Source of the DNA: Desulfatitalea sp. BRH_c12
GTDB lineage: Bacteria; Desulfobacterota; Desulfobacteria; Desulfobacterales; Desulfosarcinaceae
Assembly (NCBI GenBank): GCA_000961655.1
Contig: LADR01000018.1
Coordinates: 62,001-126,000, forward strand
Length of the DNA: 64,000 nt
Reading direction: 5' to 3'
In this document: positions 1,352-45,647 of the stretch, piece after piece
Numbering within the stretch: position 1 is the stretch's first letter
How the letters are laid out: each line of letters begins with the position of its first letter
Notes under the pieces: model-generated
What the model was told of the DNA's origin: nothing
Seen by the model: the letters and a program-made list of their open reading frames with translations, nothing else
The model's database searches: none
Position numbers and translations under genes: made by a program

Positions 1352-3598
1352 TCACCCTTCTTCGATGGCAATCCCCGACACCCCTTGAAAGCCACGCGGC
1401 AGCTTTTTCCCCCGTGCTCCGCGATTGCCGCTGAATTCGGAGACAATATTATAGGTCATGCGGAAACTGCGTTTGCCGGCGAAAATGACGAATTTACACT
1501 GGTCCGGCAACACCGTGAGAAATGCCATTTCATCCGTGCCGGCCAGGATGTCTTTGGACAGCACATGGATGATCTTGTTGCCCTTGCCCTTGGCCATACG
1601 CGGCAGTTCGCCGGCGGGAAAAGCCAACATGCGCCCCTGACGGGTGACGGCCACAACCAACAGATGGTCGATGTTACGGTCGATGGGTATGGGCGTCAGG
1701 GGCACGGCGCCTTCGGGAAGACTTAAAAACGCTTTTCCCTTGGTATTGCGCGAGTGCATCTCCTCCAGTTTGCTGAAAAATCCATAGCCGGCGGTGCTGG
1801 CCACCAGATATTCTGTTTCAGGCTCTGCGATAACGACCGATAAAACGCGCGCATTCGCATCGATCGCAAAAGAACCGGTTAACGGCACGCCGTGGCTGCG
1901 CGCCGTGGGAAAGCTATTGGGGTCCGCCGCGTACGTGCGACCGTTCGAATCCATGAATATCGCGGACTGATTGCTGCGCCCGTAAGCCGCCGACAGGAAT
2001 TCATCGCCAGCCTTGTAGATCAGCTCTTCGGGTTTAATGTCGTGGCCTTTGGCGGTGCGAACCCATCCCATTTTGGACAGGACCACCGTGACGGGTTCCA
2101 CAGGGGCCATTTCGGTCTCGGAGATGGCGCGGGCTTCCGCACGTGCGACAATCCGGCTGCGCCGGGCGTCGCCGAATTTCGCGGCGTCGTCGGTCATCTC
2201 TTTTTTAATCAGATTGCCAAGGCGCGCCGGGGATGCCAAAACTTTTTCGATGGCGGCCTTTTCGGCCAGCAAGGTTTTTTGCTCCGCCTTCAACTTTTGT
2301 TCTTCAAGCCGGGCCAACTGGCGCAACCTGATCTGCAAGATGGCTTCGGCCTGGCGCTCGCTGATCGAGAAGGCCTTGATCAGTTCGGGTTTGGGGTCGT
2401 CGCTCGTGCGAATGATCTGGATGATCCGGTCCAGATTCAAAAAGGCGATCAACAACCCTTCGAGCACATGCAAGCGGTCAAGCAGTTGGTTCAGCCGGTG
2501 TTCCAGGCGGCGCGTGACAGTCTGTTTGCGGAACGCCAGCCATTCGACAAGCAGCGGCCGCAGGCCTTTGACTTGGGGTTTGCGCTCCGTGCCGATCATG
2601 TTCAGATTGACTTTATAGGTGTTCTCCATGTCGGTGGTGGCACACAGGTGCGACATGAGATCATCCAGATCCACGCGGTTTGATCGCGGGGTGATGACAA
2701 TGCGCACCGGCGCCTCGCTGTCACCTTCATCGCGGATATCGGACACCATGGGCAGTTTTTTCTGTTGCATCTGCATGGCGATCTGCTCGATCACCTTGGT
2801 CGGGGAGACCTGGTAGGGCAATGCCTGAATGACGATGTTGCCGTTTTCGCGCTGCCACACGGCACGCATGCGCACTGTGCCGAACCCGCTGCGGTAAATT
2901 TCGACGATATCCTGGGGAGCGGTAATGATTTCAGCCTCGGTGGGATAGTCCGGCCCCAAAATGTGCGCGCACAGTTCTTCCAGAGTGGCATCCGGGTGAT
3001 CCAAAAGATGGATACAGGCTTTGACCACTTCGTTCATGTTGTGCGGCGGAATATTGGTGGCCATTCCCACGGCAATGCCGCTGCCGCCGTTGAGCAGCAC
3101 ATTGGGCAGGCGCGCTGGCATGTAGAGGGGCTCTTGCAAGGTCCCGTCGAAATTGGCCCCCCACTCGACCGTGCCCATGGCGAGTTCGGAGAGCAGCAAT
3201 TCGGCATAGGGCGAAAGACGCGCTTCGGTATAGCGCATGGCTGCAAAGGATTTAGGATCATCGACCGACCCCCAGTTGCCCTGCCCTTCGACCAGTGGGT
3301 AGCGATAGGAGAACGGCTGCGACATGAGCACCATGGCTTCGTAACAGGCCGTGTCGCCGTGTGGGTGAAACTTGCCCAGCACGTCACCGATCGTTCGCGC
3401 CGCCTTCTTGAATTTGGCCGGTGCGCTCAGTCCCAACTCCGACATCGCGTAGAGGATTCTACGATGGACCGGCTTGAGCCCGTCGCCGATAAACGGCAGC
3501 GCCCGATCCATGATGACATACATGGCGTAATTCAGGTAGGATTGTTCGCTGAACACATGGATGGGAATGGATTCGACCAGATGGTTGTTCTTCTGCAT
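1352..3598 (-). CDS. parC: DNA topoisomerase IV subunit A
   Basis: This is the 748-residue DNA cleavage and religation subunit of a type IIA topoisomerase, which decatenates daughter chromosomes. The winged-helix breakage-reunion domain starts near residue 20. It contains GKFHPHGD (about 76-83) and [10 protein letters not shown] with catalytic Tyr123. A coiled coil follows around 360-460. The C-terminal region (about 490-748) looks like a shortened ParC-type beta-pinwheel and lacks an obvious GyrA box, which favours ParC over GyrA. It begins 79 bp after the parE stop on the same strand, the usual parE-parC operon order. The start is the ATG at 3598. Length and motifs are complete. Confidence 0.93.
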
Positions 3599-33614: not shown

Positions 33615-34763
33615 ATGAACCGCATCAAAATGACCATAAGTGCCCTTCTGCTGTTTGTGGCGGTCGCCGGAATCGGCCTCGGTCTGGCCGCATGGAAACA
33701 CGCCATCACCCAGGAAGCCAATGCGGCCTCCGCAAATCAGCCCGAGCCGAAGGAAACGGTGACGGTCGCTGTTGCAAAATCATTCAAACACCGCCCGGCG
33801 ACAACGTCCATCGGGACGGTTATCGCCTTGCGTTCAATCACATTGCGCAATGAACTCCCCGGGACCGTGAGCCAGGTGATGCTCATACCCGGGCAAATTG
33901 TCGAAGCCGGCACCATGCTTGTCAGACTCGACGTTTCCGTCGAAGAGGCCGAACTGAAGGCACAGGCCGCGCAGGCCGCGCTTGCGCAGACCACGCTCAA
34001 ACGCGTGCGGCAGGCCTATCTGAAACGGGCCGTGTCTGAAGTCGAGGTGGATCGGGCCGCTGCGGAACGCGACGTCGCGCTGGCGAATATCGCGCGCATT
34101 AAAGCGACCATCGCTCGCAAAACGATACGGGCGCCCTTCCGGGCACGCGTCGGTTTGGCCGATGTCCACCCTGGCCAGTATCTGAACGCAGGCACCCTTC
34201 TGACAACGCTGCAGGGGGTCGACGACGCCGTGCATGTGGATTTCACGGTGGCGCAGCCGGTCGCCTGGGACCTGAAGGTGGGCCAGAATGTCGATGTGTT
34301 CGTCTCCGGCGATCTGGTGCCCGTCATCGCCACCATAGCGGCGCTTGATGCGCGCATCGATCCGGCCACCCGCAACGCTTTGGTCCGCGCCAGAATTGAA
34401 GGCGCCGCCAGATCACCTGCGCCGGGTTCTTCGGTACGCGTGCGCGTGCCGGTTGGCCAGCCCCGCAATGCGGTCGCGGTTCCCGTGAGCGCGTTGCGCA
34501 AAGGACCGGAGGGGGACCACGTATTCGTCATTGCGCCGGATACGGAAGGTGAGCCCCGCGCCCACCGGCGCCAGGTCCAGAGCGGCACGCTGCTCGGCGA
34601 TGAAATCGCGGTGTATGCCGGTCTTGCCGCCGGTGAGCGGATCGCGGTTTCAGGTTCTTTCAAACTTCGTGAAAACACTCTGGTTGCCATTGCCGACGAC
34701 CGGAGGACAGGTCATAGTGAGGCGTTCCATGGAGACATACAGCGAACCTCAGCAACCCAATAA
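33615..34763 (+). CDS. RND efflux periplasmic adaptor (membrane fusion protein)
   Basis: This 382-residue adaptor has an N-terminal membrane anchor or signal (about 8-27), a lipoyl/barrel-sandwich domain (LPGTVSQVMLIPGQIVEAGTM), a shorter helical hairpin (about 115-165), a beta-barrel domain and a membrane-proximal domain. It links the inner-membrane pump to the outer-membrane factor in the periplasm. The hairpin is shorter than in AcrA, like adaptors of the MexK/heavy-drug RND subgroup. Its 3' end overlaps the start of the pump gene, so translation is coupled. The operator at 33582 is directly upstream. Confidence 0.88.
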   Translation: MNRIKMTISALLLFVAVAGIGLGLAAWKHAITQEANAASANQPEPKETVTVAVAKSFKHRPATTSIGTVIALRSITLRNELPGTVSQVMLIPGQIVEAGTMLVRLDVSVEEAELKAQAAQAALAQTTLKRVRQAYLKRAVSEVEVDRAAAERDVALANIARIKATIARKTIRAPFRARVGLADVHPGQYLNAGTLLTTLQGVDDAVHVDFTVAQPVAWDLKVGQNVDVFVSGDLVPVIATIAALDARIDPATRNALVRARIEGAARSPAPGSSVRVRVPVGQPRNAVAVPVSALRKGPEGDHVFVIAPDTEGEPRAHRRQVQSGTLLGDEIAVYAGLAAGERIAVSGSFKLRENTLVAIADDRRTGHSEAFHGDIQRTSATQ

Positions 34764-37700
34764 CGACATTCAAAGGCGTTCGTTCACCGATATCTTCATC
34801 AAGCATCCCGTTTTGGCAGTGGTCGTCAACCTCGTGCTCGTTCTGGCAGGATGGCGGGCGCTGACGACCTTGCCGGTGCAGCAATATCCGGACATCAAAA
34901 GCTCGTCGGTGATCATCACGACCGTCTACACCGGCGCCGCCGCCGAGACTGTGCGCGGATTTCTCACCACCCCTATCGAACGCGTCGTGTCGGCCATCAG
35001 CGGCGTCGATCACATCGAATCGACCAGCCGCGCCGGCCTGAGCACGGTCACGGTGCGCCTTAAACTGAACCACGACAGCACGGCAGCCCTGGCCGAGGTC
35101 ACTGCGCGCCTGCAGCAGGTCCGCGCCGAGTTGCCGGCCGAAGCCGAGCCGCCGGTCGTCGAGGTGCAGCGCGCCGATCGGCCCTACGGGTCGTTCTATA
35201 TCAGCTTCACCTCCAACGCGCGCAGTGTGCCGGCCATGACCGATTGGCTGATGCGCACGCTGCAGCCGCAGCTGTCCACCCTTGCCGGCGTTCAACGCGT
35301 CACCATCGAAGGCGGCCGGCCGATCGCCATGCGTGTATGGATCGATCCGGATCGCCTGGCCGCGCTCAACCTCTCACCCGGCGATGTGCATGCGGCTCTG
35401 CAGCGCAACAATTACCTGGCTGCCGTGGGCCGCACCAAGGGCAACCTGGTGCAGGTCAACCTGTTGGCCAATACGGACCTGCGCTCGGTCGATGAGTTCA
35501 ACGATCTGATCGTGACCGAGCGCGGCGGCGCCATCGTGCGTCTGAGCGATGTGGCGCGCGTCGAACTGGGGGCCGAAGAAGCCGATATGGTGGCCAAGTA
35601 CAACGATGCACAGGCCGTCTACCTGGGTATCTGGCCGCTGGTCGGCTCGAACGAGATCGATGTGGCCGAGGATCTGCGGGCGGAAATGGCGCGCATCCAG
35701 CCAATGCTGCCTGAGGACATCCACATGCGTCTGGTGTGGGACGGGACGATGTTCATGCGCGATGCGCTCTCCGAGATCACCAAAACGCTCGGCGAGACGA
35801 TCCTGATCGTCGGAATCGCCGTGTTCCTGTTCATGGGGTCGCTGCGCACGGCGCTCGTGCCCCTGCTGGCCATGCCGGTCTCCCTGATCGGCGCCGCGCT
35901 GGTCATGCTTGCGTTCGGATTCAGCCTGAACCTTCTGACCATTCTGGCGATCGTGCTGGCGGTCGGCTTGGTCGTTGACGATGCCATCGTGGTGGTCGAA
36001 AATGTCGAGCGCCACGTGCGCATGGGCAAGTCGCGCAGCGCGGCAGCCATAGCGGCCGCACGCGAGCTGGTGGGTCCAATTATCGCCATGACGATCACGC
36101 TGGCGGTGGTGTATGTGCCGATCGGCATGCAAGGCGGTCTGACAGGCTCGCTGTTTCTAGAGTTTGCGATCACCTTGGCTGCCGCGGTGGTTGTCTCGGG
36201 GTTTGTCGCCGTGACCCTGTCGCCGGTGATGAGTTCGCGTTTCGTGCATCCGCAAGGCCGCGAAGGCCGCCTGACCAATTGGGTCAATCACGGCTTCACG
36301 CTCGTGCGGCAGGTCTATGGATGGCTGCTCGACCGTGCGCTGGCGATGCGCTGGGCCATTGTCGTGGCTGCCCTGGTGGTCATGCTGGCGGCCGGACCGC
36401 TTTACCAGCAATCGCGACGCGAACTGGCACCGGTCGAGGATCAGAGCCACATCAGTTTTTTCCTCGAATCTTCGCCCGATTCAACGCTCGAGGCGGCCGA
36501 TCGCGAATCGCTCAAAGTGGTCGATCAGGTCAAAGGGTTTTCCGAAGCGGATTTCATGTGGTCGTTGACGGCCGCATGGGGCGGCTTCGGCGGCATGGTC
36601 ACCAAGGACTGGAAAATGCGCGAACGCTCGACCGAGCAAATGTTCGGGGACGTGTTCGCCGCCGTGTCGGCCATACCCGGCCTGCGGGTGTTCCCGCGCC
36701 TCGATCCGCCCTTGCCCACTCCGGGTCAGTATGATGTCGAGCTGGTGTTGCAAAGCGACGCACCGCCTGAACGCCTGCTGCAGACGATCCAGGCGGTGGT
36801 CGACAAGGGCATGCAAAGCGGCAAATTCCTGTATGTCGACACGGATTTGAAGATCGATCTGCCTGAGGCGCACGTCGTGATCGACCGCGAACGGCTGGCC
36901 GATTTGGGACTCGACCTGGCCAGCGTGGGCCGCGAGCTGGGCACGCTGCTCGGCGGGGCTTACGTCAACCGCTTCAACTTCTTCGATCGCAGCTATAAAG
37001 TCATCCCGCAGATCGGCGATGAAGACCGGGCAACGCTCGAACCGTTGCTCGACCTCAAAATAAAAACGCCCGGCGGTGCGATGGTGCCGGTATCGGCGTT
37101 CACAAGGATCGAAACGAGCACCGCGCCACGCACATTAAACCGTTTTCAGCAGCGCAACGCCGTGCGGATTTTCGGCGGCGTCCAGGCCGGTGTCACCAAA
37201 GAAGAGGGGCTGCGCGTGCTCGAAGCTGCCGCAGTTTCCGCCGGCGGTCCGGACGTGGCTCTCGATTACGCGGGCGAGTCGCGCCAGATCCGCCAGGAAG
37301 GCGAGGCGCTCACGGCCACCTTTGGGTTCGCGCTGGTACTGATCTACCTGGTGCTCTCCGCCCAGTTCCGCAGCTTTCGCGATCCGTTGATCGTCCTGCT
37401 TGGATCGGTGCCCCTGGCCATCTCCGGAGCGCTAGTGTTTAGTTTTCTGGACCTGACCACCATCAACATTTACTCGCAGGTGGGTTTGATCACGCTGGTC
37501 GGACTGGTGGCCAAAAATGGCATTCTGATTGTGGAGTTCGCCAACCGGCAGCAGGAACGCGGGCTGGCGAAAGCAGCCGCTTTGCGCGACGCGGCGTTGA
37601 CGCGCCTGCGGCCCGTACTGATGACCTCGGCCGCCACGGTCTTTGGTCACTTCCCCCTGGTGCTGGTATCCGGACCGGGCGCCGAAGCCCGTAACAGCAT

Positions 37701-39351
37701 CGGCACCGTGTTGGTCGCGGGGATGCTTCTGGGAACGTTTTTCACCCTGATCGTCGTACCGGTATTCTATTCGCTGATCGCGGCCCAACACCGGCCCGAC
37801 CCGGCACCGCATGCAACCAGGCCTCACGTGCCTCCCGCTGCGGGCACACCCGTTCGCATCCCTTCCGGCCAGCATCTGGCGCAAGTGCACGCGCAGCCTG
37901 GCGGCGGCAGTGAAGACCCCGCCTCCGGCCCAAAAGGGGCGCGTGTTCGGCTGTTGAAATGGCTGGGCGCGCATCTCGCCCTGCTTGCCATGCTTGCCGG
38001 TTGCACCCTGGGTCCCGACTATCAACGGCCGGCCGTGCCCTCTACCGAGGCCTGGCGCGACGGCCGGTCGGAAACCGCCTCACTTGCGGATATCTCTTGG
38101 TGGGAGCTCTTCGAGGACGAAGAACTTCGCGGTCTGATTCAGGTCGCGCTCGAGGCGAACAAGGACCTGCGTATCGCCGTGACACGCATTGAGCAGGCGC
38201 GCGCCCGATTGGGGATCACGCGCGCCGAACGATTCCCCCAAATCAATGCCGGCGCCAGTGCGACCACCAACCGGTTCTCGGACAACAGCGCTTTGGGCCA
38301 GGGCGGCGAAACGGAGCTGCTGACCACCACGGTGGACATGGCTTTCGAACTCGACTTGTGGGGCCGGCTGCGACGCGCCAGCGAAGCGGCCCGCGCGGAA
38401 TTTCTGGCCAGTGAAGAGGCCCGGCACACCGTCATGATGACTCTGGTCAGCGACGTGGCCACCACCTACCTCCAACTGCGCCAGATAGACCTGGAACTTG
38501 AGATCACGCAACGCAATGTCGCATCGCGGCGTGACTCGCTGCAACTGGCCCGCGACCGTTTCGAATCAGGGCTGGCATCGACGCTCGATCTGCGTCAGGC
38601 CGAAGGGGAGCTTGCCGCCACGGCCTCCCAGATTCCGGATCTGGAGCGGCAGATCGCGCAGACCGAAAACCGGCTCAGCATCATTCTGGGGCGCACGCCG
38701 GGCGCGATCACGCGCGGCCGGCCGCTCATCGGCCAAACCTCTCCGCCCACCGTCCCGGCCGGATTGCCGTCAGCCCTGCTCGAACGGCGCCCCGACATCC
38801 GCCAGGCCGAAGCAGCGCTCGTCGCCGCCAATGCTCGTATCGGAGTGGCCAAGGCAGCCCTCTTCCCCCAAATCGGCCTGACCGGTTTTTTCGGAGTAGA
38901 GAGCACCGAGCTCTCCAAGCTGTTCACCAGCCCGTCGCGCATCTGGCAGTTCGGACCCAGCCTGACGCTGCCGATCTTCAACGCCGGTCGCAATCGGGCC
39001 AACGTAGACGCGGCCGAAGCCCAGCAGCAGGAGCTTCTGATCCGATACGAACAGACCATTTTGCAAGCCTTCCGCGAGCTGGAAGACGCCCTGATCGCAC
39101 ATCGCAAGGCCCGCGAATCGCTGGCCGAGCAGCGCGAAGCGGTGCGGGCGTCGCGCCAGGGGCTGAGCATTGCCGAATATCGCTACAAGAGCGGATTGAC
39201 CAGCTACTTGAACGTCCTGGATGCACAACGCACGCTGCTCACGCAGGAGGTCACCGAGAGCCGCACGCTGCTCGCGCAACTTGTGTCCGTTGTCCAGATC
39301 TACCGGGCGCTGGGCGGCGGGTGGCATACCGAACAGGCCGATCGGCAGTAA
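34717..39351 (+). CDS. Fused RND efflux pump and outer-membrane factor (NodT/TolC type)
   Basis: One uninterrupted frame of about 1544 residues encodes two proteins that are normally separate. Residues about 10-1025 form a complete RND permease with 12 membrane helices, two large periplasmic loops and the proton-relay motif VGLVVDDAIVVVENVE in TM4. A 55-residue Pro/Gly/Arg-rich linker (HRPDPAPHATRP...) follows. Then comes a lipoprotein signal, LKWLGAHLALLAMLAGC (Cys1096), and a full outer-membrane efflux protein of the NodT family (GPDYQRP start, PIFNAGRNRANV, EYRYKSGLTSYLNVLDAQR). An in-frame TTG at 37954, preceded by AAAAGGGG, might start the second part on its own. Start GTG 34717 has GGAGG 10 bp upstream; ATG 34729 is the alternative. 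Drug specificity is unknown. Confidence 0.85.
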   Translation: MRRSMETYSEPQQPNNDIQRRSFTDIFIKHPVLAVVVNLVLVLAGWRALTTLPVQQYPDIKSSSVIITTVYTGAAAETVRGFLTTPIERVVSAISGVDHIESTSRAGLSTVTVRLKLNHDSTAALAEVTARLQQVRAELPAEAEPPVVEVQRADRPYGSFYISFTSNARSVPAMTDWLMRTLQPQLSTLAGVQRVTIEGGRPIAMRVWIDPDRLAALNLSPGDVHAALQRNNYLAAVGRTKGNLVQVNLLANTDLRSVDEFNDLIVTERGGAIVRLSDVARVELGAEEADMVAKYNDAQAVYLGIWPLVGSNEIDVAEDLRAEMARIQPMLPEDIHMRLVWDGTMFMRDALSEITKTLGETILIVGIAVFLFMGSLRTALVPLLAMPVSLIGAALVMLAFGFSLNLLTILAIVLAVGLVVDDAIVVVENVERHVRMGKSRSAAAIAAARELVGPIIAMTITLAVVYVPIGMQGGLTGSLFLEFAITLAAAVVVSGFVAVTLSPVMSSRFVHPQGREGRLTNWVNHGFTLVRQVYGWLLDRALAMRWAIVVAALVVMLAAGPLYQQSRRELAPVEDQSHISFFLESSPDSTLEAADRESLKVVDQVKGFSEADFMWSLTAAWGGFGGMVTKDWKMRERSTEQMFGDVFAAVSAIPGLRVFPRLDPPLPTPGQYDVELVLQSDAPPERLLQTIQAVVDKGMQSGKFLYVDTDLKIDLPEAHVVIDRERLADLGLDLASVGRELGTLLGGAYVNRFNFFDRSYKVIPQIGDEDRATLEPLLDLKIKTPGGAMVPVSAFTRIETSTAPRTLNRFQQRNAVRIFGGVQAGVTKEEGLRVLEAAAVSAGGPDVALDYAGESRQIRQEGEALTATFGFALVLIYLVLSAQFRSFRDPLIVLLGSVPLAISGALVFSFLDLTTINIYSQVGLITLVGLVAKNGILIVEFANRQQERGLAKAAALRDAALTRLRPVLMTSAATVFGHFPLVLVSGPGAEARNSIGTVLVAGMLLGTFFTLIVVPVFYSLIAAQHRPDPAPHATRPHVPPAAGTPVRIPSGQHLAQVHAQPGGGSEDPASGPKGARVRLLKWLGAHLALLAMLAGCTLGPDYQRPAVPSTEAWRDGRSETASLADISWWELFEDEELRGLIQVALEANKDLRIAVTRIEQARARLGITRAERFPQINAGASATTNRFSDNSALGQGGETELLTTTVDMAFELDLWGRLRRASEAARAEFLASEEARHTVMMTLVSDVATTYLQLRQIDLELEITQRNVASRRDSLQLARDRFESGLASTLDLRQAEGELAATASQIPDLERQIAQTENRLSIILGRTPGAITRGRPLIGQTSPPTVPAGLPSALLERRPDIRQAEAALVAANARIGVAKAALFPQIGLTGFFGVESTELSKLFTSPSRIWQFGPSLTLPIFNAGRNRANVDAAEAQQQELLIRYEQTILQAFRELEDALIAHRKARESLAEQREAVRASRQGLSIAEYRYKSGLTSYLNVLDAQRTLLTQEVTESRTLLAQLVSVVQIYRALGGGWHTEQADRQ

Positions 39352-39471: not shown

Positions 39472-39999
39472 CTACAGTCCCCTCTTTTCCAGCCACCTGA
39501 AGAGCACCAGCGCGCCGGCGATGAACAGGGGGATAACGATCCAGTGGTTCACGCCCAGGACCTGGGGCAATGTGATTTTGCCCAGGTCACCCCAGGTATA
39601 CACGGTCTCTTTGAGTACCGGGTAGGCTTCAGCGAACAAGGCCGCGCCGGCGACCATGCCGACGATGCCCCACAGAGCGTCCCAGCGTCCTTCGCCAAGC
39701 GCACCCAATGAGGTGCCCGGGCAATATCCCAGAAGACCCCATCCCAAACCAAAAATGAGCGCGCCGATGATGACGGGGCCCAGTATGGCGGCTTTGACAG
39801 AGAGTTTGACCAGTCCTAAGTCGTGCAGCAGATAGATCCCGACCATGCCGACGATGACACTGGACAACATGAATTTGACGATGGTCATATCCATCAGACG
39901 CAGGGCGCCGACCTGCTTATCGTAGCGCAGCACGCGACCCTTCTGCAGCAAAAAACCGAATAACACGCCGGTAACCAGTCCATATACAAGCATCGTCAT
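39472..39999 (-). CDS. YeeE/YedE family membrane protein, second half-gene
   Basis: This 175-residue protein has four to five membrane helices and the family motif GYCPGTSLGALGEGRWDALWG (near residue 78), whose Cys lines the substrate path in the thiosulfate transporter YeeE/TsuA. ATG 39999 is chosen because GGGGGAGGTG lies just upstream and because it overlaps the stop of the previous gene (ATGA). The two half-genes together equal one full YeeE. The pair probably imports a sulfur- or selenium-containing ion such as thiosulfate. This is inferred from the family. Confidence 0.82.
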   Translation of the reverse strand: MTMLVYGLVTGVLFGFLLQKGRVLRYDKQVGALRLMDMTIVKFMLSSVIVGMVGIYLLHDLGLVKLSVKAAILGPVIIGALIFGLGWGLLGYCPGTSLGALGEGRWDALWGIVGMVAGAALFAEAYPVLKETVYTWGDLGKITLPQVLGVNHWIVIPLFIAGALVLFRWLEKRGL

Positions 40000-40517
40000 C
40001 GGGCACCTCCCCCGTAGACCAGGCGGGCCGTGATCATGCCGCCGATAAAGAAACAAATCAAAGCGATGAAGCCGCTGACAGCCAGTTGGAGCGAACCGCT
40101 CAACCCGTGGCCGCTCGGTCAGCCATCGGCCATGCGAGCGCCAAACATGGCGACGACTCCGCCCGCGAAGGCCACTGCGGCGCGGCTGATCGTACTGCGC
40201 GTGCCAAAGCGGCCGGCCCACATATCGGGAACGGCCTGCAACCTGAACGATCCGGAAGTGAGCGCGGCAATCAGGGCACCCAGAAAAATGCCCACCACGA
40301 ACATCCATTGCCAGTCGATGCGCGGCACATTTTTGATAAAATAGTCCATGCTGGCCACCCGGTCCGGCCCGAAAAGCTGCTCGATCATGCCGGCGGTGCG
40401 CACAAAAGAGGTGGAGGCCCCAAAGTATTGGCCGGCAAACCAGACCGAAAAGACCCCCACCAACCCACTCAATCCTCCTGCCAGATAGGGGCTCCAGCCC
40501 CCGTCACGCTGCTGCAT
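39996..40517 (-). CDS. YeeE/YedE family membrane protein, probable selenoprotein (UGA = Sec133)
   Basis: The frame starts at ATG 40517 after AAGGAGGAGG and meets TGA at 40119-40121. Read through, it continues in the same frame for 40 residues (PSGHGLSGSLQL..., then ICFFIGGMITARLVYGGG) with family homology. It stops at 39996-39998 in an ATGA overlap with the second half-gene. YeeE/YedE proteins carry Cys in the motif GARLADGCxSGHGLSG; here the Cys position is the UGA (GARMADG-U-PSGHG). A hairpin with a G-containing apical loop lies 15-34 nt after UGA. A 173-residue selenoprotein with Sec133 fits all these points. A Cys-to-stop mutation is the alternative. Confidence 0.78.
40085..40104 (-). promoter_or_regulatory. 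bSECIS-like hairpin downstream of the in-frame UGA
   Basis: On the minus strand, GTTGAGCGGTTCGCTCCAAC folds as GTTG-AGCG, loop GTT, CGCT-c-CAAC. This is eight pairs with one bulged C. The loop begins 23 nt after the UGA, within the usual 16-37 nt range, and its first base is G, as SelB-binding SECIS loops require. It lies inside the coding sequence, as bacterial SECIS elements do. Confidence 0.6.
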
Positions 40518-40743: not shown

Positions 40744-42525
40744 TTAGAAGGGCCAGAAAAAAACGATCATCGGAACGGCGACTGCGACGACCAGAATGGA
40801 CAGCGGTAACCCAAGAAGCCAATAGTCTCCGAAACGATAGCCGCCGGGTGCCATGACCAGGGCATTGGATTGATGCCCGACAGGCGTTAAAAACGCACAC
40901 GAAGCGCCTATGGCCACCGCCATCAATAAAGGGTCGACCGAGACGTTCATGCCTTTTGCCAGATGGATCGCGATCGGTGCCATCAATACTGCCGCGGCAG
41001 CGTTGTTAACCACGTTGGAAAGCAGCATTGTGCCGGTCATGAGCACCGCCAGCGTGGCAACCGGATGAAAGTGATCGGAGAAGAGTATCATTTTTACAGC
41101 GACCAGTTGCGCGCCCCCCGTAGTCTCCAGAGCGTTGCCCAGTGGGAACATCGCTCCGAGCAGGACAATGATCGGCCAATCGATACTCTCATAGATTTCT
41201 TTCACGGAAATCAATCCGATCAGGATCATCACCATGGCGGCAATCAGAAAAGCGATCTGCACCGGCAGAATGTTGAAAGCGGCCGCGGCCATCGCGGCCC
41301 CGAAGATGCTTAAGGCCAGCAAAATCTTGCGCGGTTTGATCTTCAGCACACCGCGTTCCGCCAGGGGCAGGCAGCCCAGGTTCTCTAGGGCCTCCTTGAA
41401 ACCTTCCATTTTGCCCTGCAGCAGGAGAATATCCCCCACCGCAAAGGGCGTCCGTGCGACCCGCGATTTCAATCTTTGTCCCCGGCGGGCGACCGCAAGC
41501 AGGTTGACGCCGAAATTGTTGTGCAACTTCATGCCGATGGCAGTGTTTCCAGGCAACCGTGAGTGCGGGGTGACGACCGCTTCGATGATGCGGATGTCCT
41601 CCGATTCCAATGCGTCCATGTGCTTTTGTTGATCGGCTGCCAGTTCAAGACCGTGGTTTTCGACCAGAGCGTTCAAACTCTCGGAATCGGCTTGGACCAG
41701 AAGAATATCGCCGGCCTCGAGAATATCGTACCAGCCTGGCGCCGGGGTGTGGCGATCGCCGCGCACAAGCCCGACAACGACGGCATCCATCTCTTTTTCC
41801 ATCGCGGACGTCAGCTGATACAAGGTGTGTCCCACAATGGCGGCGCCTGCGGGCACCACCACTTCAGTAATATACTCTTCTATCTGAAACAGTTCTTCGG
41901 AAGTGGTGCCGCCTTCCCGTCGCGGAGTGAGCCGCCAGCCGACCAGCGCAATAAAAATCAACCCGGCCAGGGCAACACCGATGCCGACCGGCGTAAAATC
42001 GAACATTCCGAACGGTGCAGCACCGGTTTGGGCGCGGTAAGTGGCGATAATGATGTTCGGCGGCGTGCCGATCAGGGTGGTCAAACCTCCAATCAAGGAG
42101 CCGAAAGCCAGTGGCATGAGCAGCAAGGAGGGCGACCGTCCGCTTTGGCGCGACATCCATATGGCCACGGGCATGAGCAGCGCCAGCGCGCCCACATTGT
42201 TCATGAAGCCTGAACACAGAACCACGATACCGGTCAGAACGGCCACCTGCACCGTGAGGCGTGAATCCATTTTGGCCAGGTAGCGCGAAATGGCATCGAC
42301 CACCCCGGCATTAAGCAGACCGCGACTGATAACCAGTACGGCCGCCACCGTTATGACGGCGGGATGGCCGAAGCCCAGAAAGACCTCTTCGGCCGGGACC
42401 AGTCCGGCCATAAAAACCAGCACCAGGGCCGCGAGAGCGACAATGTCGTAACGCCAGCGCCCCCACACGAACAGAACAAGAGCGCCCAGAAGTATTCCAA
42501 AAACAATTCCTTGATCAGCAGTCAT
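40744..42525 (-). CDS. SLC13/ArsB-type anion permease with two TrkA-C domains
   Basis: This membrane transporter of about 593 residues has two sets of membrane helices around a cytoplasmic pair of TrkA-C/RCK-C domains (about 205-375, PAGAAIVGHTLYQL and NFGVNLLAVARRG). SLC13 signatures are FMNNVGALALLMPVAIW, LIGTPPNIIIATYR and, in the second half, SNVVNNAAAAVLMAPIA. The substrate could be sulfate, another oxyanion or a dicarboxylate. The neighbouring YeeE pair makes a sulfur anion plausible. ATG 42525 is chosen (AAAGGG 9 bp upstream). The frame stays open to 42759, but that extension runs into a MITE and is not credible. Confidence 0.82.
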   Translation of the reverse strand: MTADQGIVFGILLGALVLFVWGRWRYDIVALAALVLVFMAGLVPAEEVFLGFGHPAVITVAAVLVISRGLLNAGVVDAISRYLAKMDSRLTVQVAVLTGIVVLCSGFMNNVGALALLMPVAIWMSRQSGRSPSLLLMPLAFGSLIGGLTTLIGTPPNIIIATYRAQTGAAPFGMFDFTPVGIGVALAGLIFIALVGWRLTPRREGGTTSEELFQIEEYITEVVVPAGAAIVGHTLYQLTSAMEKEMDAVVVGLVRGDRHTPAPGWYDILEAGDILLVQADSESLNALVENHGLELAADQQKHMDALESEDIRIIEAVVTPHSRLPGNTAIGMKLHNNFGVNLLAVARRGQRLKSRVARTPFAVGDILLLQGKMEGFKEALENLGCLPLAERGVLKIKPRKILLALSIFGAAMAAAAFNILPVQIAFLIAAMVMILIGLISVKEIYESIDWPIIVLLGAMFPLGNALETTGGAQLVAVKMILFSDHFHPVATLAVLMTGTMLLSNVVNNAAAAVLMAPIAIHLAKGMNVSVDPLLMAVAIGASCAFLTPVGHQSNALVMAPGGYRFGDYWLLGLPLSILVVAVAVPMIVFFWPF

Positions 42526-42638
42526 GTGCATGTGCCCTTTTCGGGCCCCCTGCAGGGGGTCTATGTTTGGGTTTGGAAATGAAAAATCTGCATCGTGCAT
42601 TTTTGCATCCGGCGGGTCAAGAAATAAGTCGTCATTGC

Positions 42639-42956
42639 GCAGGGGGTAACCGCATTTGCGTATGGGCCGCATTTTAGAAATGGAACATCGTTCTTTCTTA
42701 GGGCGAACCTTTGTATTCGGGTCATCGCACAGGCTGGCGCGGAAATATTTCTCCCGCACTCATGAGTGCCGGGGATGGTGGCTTTGCTCCCGCACCGGGC
42801 GACCGCCGGTCGCCCTTACAGGTGGAACCCCCTGCGATAACACGGTGAAAAGGGTTCGCGGTATGATCCTCAAAAAGATATGGCCTTTTTTTTTAGCTCA
42901 GAGTAACGCTTATTGCAAAAGTACAGTAATGAAAATTCCAAATGCGGTTACCCTGT
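42639..42956. mobile_element. MITE with terminal inverted repeats, copy 2
   Basis: The left end GGGGGTAACCGCATTTG (to 42658) and right end CAAATGCGGTTACCCTGT (42939-42956) are inverted. CGTCATTGCG (42630-42639) and CGTCGTTGCG (42957-42966) flank the element as a 10-bp target duplication with one change. In reverse orientation it shares long tracts with the copy at 6058: CATCGCACAGGCTGGCGCGG, the CCCGCACCGGGCGACC palindrome, and the AGAAATGGAACATCGTTCTT end. The second inner palindrome of copy 1 is absent. It fills most of the 605-bp gap between the permease and yciH. Confidence 0.78.
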
Positions 42957-44559: not shown

Positions 44560-45647
44560 GGTTATGCACTTCGCTCCAGTGATAAAAATTTTCAGCCGGT
44601 GTGACCGTATCTGTCACAGCCTCGGCGTATACTGGCCCTCAAAATTCATCATAGGAGGCAATAAAATGGGCCAACTTACGATCATAGAGGATTTTCCCAA
44701 AAACCAAGCCACTTTCGATGCGCGCTTTAACACCGAGGAGGCCTGTCAAGCGTACCTTTTCAAGCTGCGATGGCCTGATGGCTTTGTTTGCACTCAATGC
44801 AGCGACAAGCGCCACTGGAAAAGCAGCAGAGGGCTTTATATCTGCTATCGCTGTGAACATCAGCATTCGGTCACCGCTGGTACAATCATGTCAGGCACTC
44901 GCAAGCCACTGGTCGCCTGGTTTAAAGCCATGTGGTGGTTTACCACTCGAAAATCGGGAGTCAATGCCATCAATCTGCAGGACCTATTGGGTCTGGGCAG
45001 TTACAACACGGCCTGGCGTTGGTTGCAAAAATTACGGAGCTGTACGATCCGACAAAGCCGAGAGAAACTTTCGGGAAAAATTGAGGCCGATGAGTTCTAT
45101 CTTGGTGGCGAACACGGTGGCGGTAAACGAGGTCGCGGAGCTGAACATAAGTGTGCGGTTGCGGTCGCAGTTGAGCGCAAGGGGCACAAGCTTGGCCGCA
45201 TCCGATTGCAGTTGATAGATGATTGTTCATCGGGCCAACTGGTCCCTTTCGTATGTAGCAACATTACTCCAGGCAGTTATGTTACCACCGATGGGTGGAA
45301 AAGTTACAATGATCTCGGCGCTGAAGGTTACATGCATCAGAAAATCGTCCGGTCCAAGGCTCCTGATAAAGAAAGTGTATTGTCCGGCGCGCATCTGGTG
45401 ATCTCTTTAATCAAGCGGCTGATGATCGGAACTTTTCAAGGGCGTTTTGAAAAAAAGTACCTTCAGCGCTATTTGGACGAATACGTCTTCCGCTTTAATC
45501 GACGTACGACCGCTTCAGTAGGCAAGCGCTTCTTTCGGATCGTCCAGCAAGCTGTCACAACCAAAGCCTTGCCCAAAAAGCAAATCATGCTCGGCGTACC
45601 GAGCCTGGGCTTGGCGAACTAATGTCACTGGAGCGAAGTGCATAACC
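44560..45647 (+). mobile_element. IS1595-family insertion sequence
   Basis: The ends are GGTTATGCACTTCGCTCCAG at 44560 and its inverted copy finishing at 45647, a TIR of about 23 bp with essentially no mismatch. The 1088-bp element carries one intact transposase gene. ATATTGAAAT lies just outside both ends, offset by 2 bp, so the exact target duplication is uncertain. The right end is about 30 bp before the pyruvate kinase start. Confidence 0.82.
44666..45622 (+). CDS. IS1595-family transposase (ISXO2-like)
   Basis: This 318-residue transposase starts with a zinc ribbon (CTQC near 50 and CYRC near 70) and continues with an ISXO2-like catalytic domain. Acidic residues of the DDE/DDN site appear in KIEADEFYLGGE, SYVTTDGWKSY and the later KYLQRYLDEYVFRFNRR region. 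It is intact and full length. ATG 44666 has AGGAGG 7 bp upstream. The terminal inverted repeats surround it closely. Confidence 0.92.
   Translation: MGQLTIIEDFPKNQATFDARFNTEEACQAYLFKLRWPDGFVCTQCSDKRHWKSSRGLYICYRCEHQHSVTAGTIMSGTRKPLVAWFKAMWWFTTRKSGVNAINLQDLLGLGSYNTAWRWLQKLRSCTIRQSREKLSGKIEADEFYLGGEHGGGKRGRGAEHKCAVAVAVERKGHKLGRIRLQLIDDCSSGQLVPFVCSNITPGSYVTTDGWKSYNDLGAEGYMHQKIVRSKAPDKESVLSGAHLVISLIKRLMIGTFQGRFEKKYLQRYLDEYVFRFNRRTTASVGKRFFRIVQQAVTTKALPKKQIMLGVPSLGLAN

Follow-up and report, generated by a model that had tools for sequence, protein, structure and literature searches.

Does the TGA inside a YeeE/YedE-family half-gene of Desulfatitalea sp. BRH_c12 end the protein, or does it encode selenocysteine (Sec)? 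We addressed this question in a 64,000-nucleotide stretch of DNA (hereafter the window; G000:C48:62001-126000, from a genome of 6.0 Mb) by comparing the locus with its relatives. A first-pass annotation had proposed a Sec-containing gene at 39996-40517. Its frame is confirmed; the strand, which it left unstated, is minus. The features discussed below are:

39996..40517, minus strand: PF04143 half-transporter gene, C-terminal-type (PmpA-like), predicted selenoprotein of 173 aa with Sec133 (read-through translation, PF04143 profile)
40119..40121, minus strand: in-frame TGA, read as selenocysteine at residue 133 (TGA/Cys column in relatives, alignment with Cys293)
40085..40104, minus strand: bSECIS-like hairpin, nucleotides 18-37 counted from the U of the UGA (folding, comparison of relatives)
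39996..39999, minus strand: ATGA, in which the true stop of the Sec half overlaps the start codon of the partner (sequence, relatives)
39475..39999, minus strand: partner half-gene, N-terminal-type (PmpB-like), 175 aa, with Cys93 in GYCPGT; stop codon at 39474..39472 (PF04143 profile, alignment)

The TGA codon and its column in relatives

Read through from 40517 to 39996, the frame encodes 173 residues, is interrupted by just one TGA (40121-40119, in the motif GARMADG-U-PSGHG) and ends in TGA. The read-through protein matches PF04143 at 75.9 bits (cut-off 27) over residues 5-162, on both sides of the TGA, and covers profile positions 174-310. The proposal that the codon sits at the family's conserved Cys, with homology resuming after it, is thus borne out. 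As foreseen, the mechanical ORF list ends the gene at 40119, an annotation issue that shortens the protein by 41 residues. An AlphaFold model of the Sec half alone, built with 26 sequences, was poor (mean pLDDT 52.6, pTM 0.34).

Relatives were fetched from genome contigs, and the best 80 of the 171 found were compared at the Sec column. The codon is TGA in 60 of them, TGC or TGT in 20 and anything else in none, in line with the expectation that homologues would carry Cys or Sec here. When every locus with a read column is counted (129, duplicates included), there are 94 TGA and 35 TGC/TGT, and 115 distinct proteins divide into 82 and 33. An alignment of 26 members has invariant residues on both sides of the column. 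The nearest named copy among the best 80 of 171 relatives comes from a Desulfatitalea sp. MAG (86% identity). The copy in Desulfatitalea alkaliphila, a cultured carrier, likewise has the TGA.

Wider searches gave matches at several taxonomic depths. Within the genus, ten other genomes were searched; seven have the gene, all with TGA at the column, and three gave no match to the Sec half-gene. As all seven share the codon, a sequencing error at the TGA is very unlikely. At family level 17 of 30 genomes gave a match, and the best one contains one TGA in 12 (the window's own included) and none in five. A spread of 395 genomes across the phylum yielded 139 with a match at E 0.001, and the 30 best matches listed, again with the window's own, contain one TGA in 23 cases and none in seven. 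Among the weaker phylum matches, those in G410, G074 and G133 and a second copy in G328 each contain one TAA, that in G196 contains two TGA codons, and those in G422 and G139 are fragments.

These counts bear on the reading of the TGA as a true stop, in a pseudogene or through sequencing error, followed by decaying homology. Mechanical ORF calling, which ends at the TGA, is what one would expect under this reading. However, three quarters of the 80 relatives share the codon and the remainder have Cys, residues past it are conserved, a covarying hairpin comes next, and the genome encodes Sec machinery. We consider a true stop barely conceivable.

The hairpin after the UGA and the selenocysteine machinery

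A bSECIS is recognized as a hairpin shortly past the UGA with a G starting its apical loop. The hairpin proposed here lies 15-34 nt past the TGA. Its stem consists of seven pairs (18-21 with 34-37 and 22-24 with 30-32), with a bulged base at 33 and the apical loop GGUUC, and the loop starts with GG in 59 of 60 TGA relatives. For a 27-nt core of the window sequence, 5 of 200 shuffles fold at least as well (z -2.1), and for a 46-nt stretch 32 of 200 do (z -1.0). Alone, the window hairpin is therefore modestly better than chance, which is weak; the comparative support is much stronger.

Compensatory changes fall at two pairs. In 60 distinct TGA sequences, that of the window among them, pair 18-37 consists of G-C in 46 and of A-U in 10, while at pair 19-36 there are 39 with C-G and 19 with U-A; the bulge at 33 is C in 31 of these sequences and U in 29. 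We quantified covariation over 56 distinct 45-nt rows of the TGA set against 500 shuffles, which ignore relatedness. Cells altered on both sides number 27, against a shuffled mean of 8.4, and no shuffle reached the covariation score (0/500). Paired cells make up 96.9% of the set, and sliding the partner by one to three columns lowers this to 50.8% or less. Because only two pairs vary, the number of doubly changed pairs and that of further pair types, two of the five measures, stay within the range of the shuffles (460/500 as high).

Cys copies retain far less of this structure. Of 60 TGA relatives, 54 have the complete set of seven pairs and six do not, versus 3 of 20 Cys relatives with the complete set, and paired cells in the 20 Cys copies fall to 68.6%. 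The Cys set nevertheless beats most shuffles on two measures (1/500 and 3/500 as high), a signal that perhaps comes from recent descent from Sec copies. Codon choice within the hairpin follows the same division: codon +8 is GGT in 57/59 TGA copies versus 4/20 Cys copies, and codon +9 is TCG in 55/56 versus 4/10. Five codons beyond the hairpin served as controls, and one of them (+16) differs between the two groups as well, less strongly (p 0.004). Since the Fisher tests used for these codon comparisons ignore relatedness, we place weight on effect size and on covariation. When ten chosen sequences were folded singly, five TGA copies gave z values from -1.6 to -2.3 and five Cys copies from -0.3 to +1.2. 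In some TGA copies (for example L091, L101 and L102) the loop differs and is closed by a stem that matches it.

A quick tree of the 115 distinct proteins, with the Sec/Cys column masked, requires 16 changes of the Sec/Cys label, at least four of them forced by well supported branches; 53 of its 112 inner branches are open. On this sequence comparison, Sec and Cys forms appear to have exchanged repeatedly. Three Cys copies, L089 (codon at 3388), L027 (3397) and L041 (3388), retain all seven stem pairs, and L089 retains the exact GGUUC loop as well. Their hairpins are possibly relics of recent replacement of Sec by Cys. At least L089 looks like such a replacement, the direction being our interpretation.

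The selenocysteine genes sought in the window's genome, selA, selB, selC and selD, are all represented above cut-off: tRNA-Sec at 72.4 bits (cut-off 47), SelA at 517.4 (22.8), SelB at 379.5 (242) and SelD at 372.6 (125). The SelD gene (G000:C66:111700-112626) has one in-frame TGA, so SelD is probably itself a selenoprotein.

We also examined SelA across 80 genomes and found a match in 75, comprising 49 of 52 with the TGA form (TGA read at the column in 34, and assigned by TGA count alone in 18) and 26 of 28 without it; the matches in G006 and G181, both with the TGA form, are partial. With SelA in 75 of 80 genomes, its co-occurrence does not discriminate TGA from non-TGA genomes and is uninformative. 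In G012, G301 and G098, the three TGA-form genomes with no SelA match, tRNA-Sec and SelB both exceed their cut-offs, suggesting that the gene was missed or fell into a gap of the assembly. Of these, G301 and G098 are nearly complete genomes with one TGA in the gene, and their missing SelA match may reflect an assembly gap or a divergent Sec synthase. Another TGA-form genome, G280, has tRNA-Sec and SelA, with a SelB match below cut-off. Two non-TGA genomes likewise gave no SelA match: G421, in which tRNA-Sec and SelB both pass their cut-offs, and G063, in which neither does. As G063 carries a non-TGA copy, the pair is thus not tied to selenocysteine use.

The UGA might instead be decoded as another residue, or read through without Sec. 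Nothing was found in favour of this, and all non-TGA relatives read have Cys at the column (20/20, and 35/35 over 129 loci), in addition to the presence of tRNA-Sec, SelA, SelB and SelD in the genome; we regard such decoding as highly improbable, if slightly less so than a true stop. Selenocysteine is almost certainly inserted at position 133, to judge from these comparisons. SelB, guided by the hairpin just past the UGA, would insert Sec at this position of the C-terminal-type half.

The partner half-gene and the predicted transporter

The partner half matches PF04143 at 50.5 bits (cut-off 27) over profile positions 18-152. Together with positions 174-310 for the Sec half, this identifies the two proteins as N-terminal-type and C-terminal-type halves of one transporter, the C-terminal-type half being encoded first. 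As the first-pass annotation noted, the true stop and the start codon of the next YeeE gene overlap as ATGA. Most relatives have ATGA here too, 56 of the 60 with TGA at the Sec column and 18 of the 20 with Cys. That annotation was equally right that the partner (39999..39475) keeps Cys in GYCPGT. This residue is Cys in 78 of 78 loci with a readable motif (58 TGA, 20 Cys). A second, distant YeeE pair in the same genome (G000:C5:64894-65981) has TGC at the Sec column and 36% identity to the Sec half.

Aligned with the YeeE of Spirochaeta thermophila (YeeE/TsuA; PDB 6LEO, 8K1R), Sec133 falls at Cys293 and the partner Cys93 at Cys91, and the column of Cys22 is Leu in the partner. An interval of 8.6 A between Cys293 and Cys91 is reported (PMC11073785). 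The Spirochaeta protein differs in being one chain with that third Cys and a YeeD partner, whereas here there are two chains. Adjacent halves, the Cys293 and Cys91 columns and no Cys22 place the pair with the split PmpAB/YedE1E2 type, with the predicted Sec replacing Cys in the first half. PmpA/PmpB and YedE1/YedE2 are likewise described as adjacent halves, with the Cys293 equivalent in the C-terminal-type and the Cys91 equivalent in the N-terminal-type half (PMC11582611, PMC10812762). They have Cys in both halves, unlike the pair here with its one Sec, and the halves of 173 and 175 aa are longer than the approximately 130 given for PmpA/PmpB (PMC11582611).

Taken as a whole, we give a probability of roughly 0.87 to the reading that the Sec half is a selenoprotein in a split YeeE/YedE transporter. 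Comparison shows the signal for insertion, a column of Sec or Cys, the Sec machinery, the splitting into a pair and the alignment with Cys293; expression and pairing, like substrate, direction and Se-S chemistry, are inferred. The full-length Sec half would pair with the co-translated N-terminal-type half to form one membrane unit, an arrangement that has been proposed for PmpA/PmpB and has functional support in YedE1/YedE2. Sec at the Cys293 position would then be the first residue of the published substrate relay, in place of its first cysteine, and the Cys91 equivalent of the partner would be the second. Sec133 may form a short-lived Se-S bond with the substrate, or make contact with it, before handing it to the partner Cys.

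For Cupriavidus, the split YedE1E2 is reported to speed the import of zero-valent sulfur, an effect lost when either conserved Cys is changed to Ser; whole-cell polysulfide oxidation was reportedly sped up by split pairs and not by full-length YedE3 (PMC10812762). PmpAB is described with the same split and the same two cysteines, and a heterodimer is proposed (PMC11582611). The Cys293/Cys91 alignment, read with these accounts of PmpAB and YedE1E2, points to a transporter of two chains that imports reduced sulfur and has Sec as its first relay residue. By this analogy the most likely job is the import of reduced sulfur, of polysulfide or zero-valent sulfur with thiosulfate less likely, and we lean, with some confidence, towards zero-valent sulfur as the substrate.

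A TsuA-type thiosulfate importer is the nearest competitor on substrate. TsuA is the best NCBIfam match of both halves, and the Cys91 and Cys293 columns are common to TsuA and the pair. Yet the half-length proteins score 46.5 and 49.2 bits with the TsuA model NF052577, far under its curated full-length cut-off of 400 bits, and the partner has Leu at the Cys22 column. Furthermore, no TusA/YeeD-like gene was seen by eye among the recurrent neighbours of 81 loci, and the effect on polysulfide oxidation reported in PMC10812762 was that of split pairs, unlike full-length YedE3. Thiosulfate import is unlikely on this evidence, at perhaps one chance in four.

The same selenoprotein could instead carry a selenium compound and serve selenium supply. 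YedE has been linked to selenium use, with split YedE genes in archaea (Lin et al. 2015, PMC5322559), and both halves score weakly with the YedE/FdhT model NF033796 (28.2 and 31.3 bits, cut-off 350). A second selenium-linked YedE model, TIGR04112 (cut-off 200), matches the partner only (29.6 bits). These models, which derive from selenium users (PMC5322559), belong to the same superfamily, but the scores here are far below the cut-offs, though a half cannot easily reach a full-length cut-off. Moreover, no selenium gene was recognized by eye among the recurrent neighbours of the 81 loci, and the non-TGA copy of G063 occurs without SelA and without tRNA-Sec or SelB above cut-off. A selenium cargo is improbable, more so than thiosulfate.

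Within the preferred reading of reduced-sulfur import, selenium at the entry site might allow a faster and more reversible bond to sulfane sulfur. We offer, tentatively and at a little under even odds, a specific model for Sec as the entry residue of a two-chain sulfur importer: it would form a selenopersulfide with polysulfide and pass the sulfane sulfur to the fixed partner Cys, and Sec/Cys swaps would tune the entry site only. Known selenoproteins are described as mostly redox proteins, more than half of which have a thioredoxin-like fold (PMC13188914). If Sec does lie in the path that the substrate takes through this transporter, selenium chemistry would be at work in moving sulfur across the membrane. 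Close relatives with Sec or Cys at one residue provide a natural experiment in which the gain from selenium is measurable.

Relation to the known family and genomic neighbourhood

Sec in this transporter family, which the first-pass annotation called notable at the conduction or relay site, is not new in itself. YeeE/YedE (pfam04143, WP_012471001.1) is tabled as a predicted selenoprotein in a 2022 review (PMC9312934), and a 2026 review (PMC13188914) also tables it, with the motif GUxSG. The example in the reviews belongs to the same Pfam family, and the GUPSG found here fits the motif; the selenoprotein family is thus already known as a prediction. The window gene is a well-supported further member of this known, little-studied family. 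As tabled, the reviews' entry is a predicted family without mention of a split pair, hairpin covariation or a relay position. What is added here is the relay position, the covarying SECIS and the repeated Sec/Cys exchange. The split-pair context, relay position, covarying SECIS and relic hairpins were not found in the literature searched, supplements and closed journals aside. The main texts of PMC2398784 and PMC5029168, primary sources cited by the reviews, contain no YedE, COG2391 or DUF395, and YedE, YeeE and transporter are all absent from the text of PMC12013277. Two papers that deal with YeeE in sulfur bacteria, PMC13293266 and PMC13047784, use no word that starts with selen.

ORF clustering over the 81 loci identified only two widespread neighbours, the partner gene and, antisense to it, an overlapping shadow ORF, and neighbouring genes say little about the substrate. 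In 7 of the 64 loci that have enough sequence, the same strand encodes a CoA-disulfide-reductase-like protein no more than 2.7 kb downstream (one example scores 452.4 bits, cut-off 458), a weak hint of polysulfide metabolism. In the window, a DASS/SLC13-type anion permease (40744-42759, minus strand; 129.7 bits, cut-off 198.6) lies upstream of the pair on the same strand, and its relatives adjoin the pair in two other loci, L017 and L057. A 352-aa ORF at 44564-45622 (plus strand) is presumably, from its look by eye, an IS1595-type transposase. In a 1606-aa open frame at 34531-39351 (plus strand), a match to an RND efflux permease (residues 86-1084) is followed, without an intervening stop, by one to a NodT-type outer-membrane efflux protein (1150-1597); the frame represents either a natural fusion or a lost stop or frameshift.
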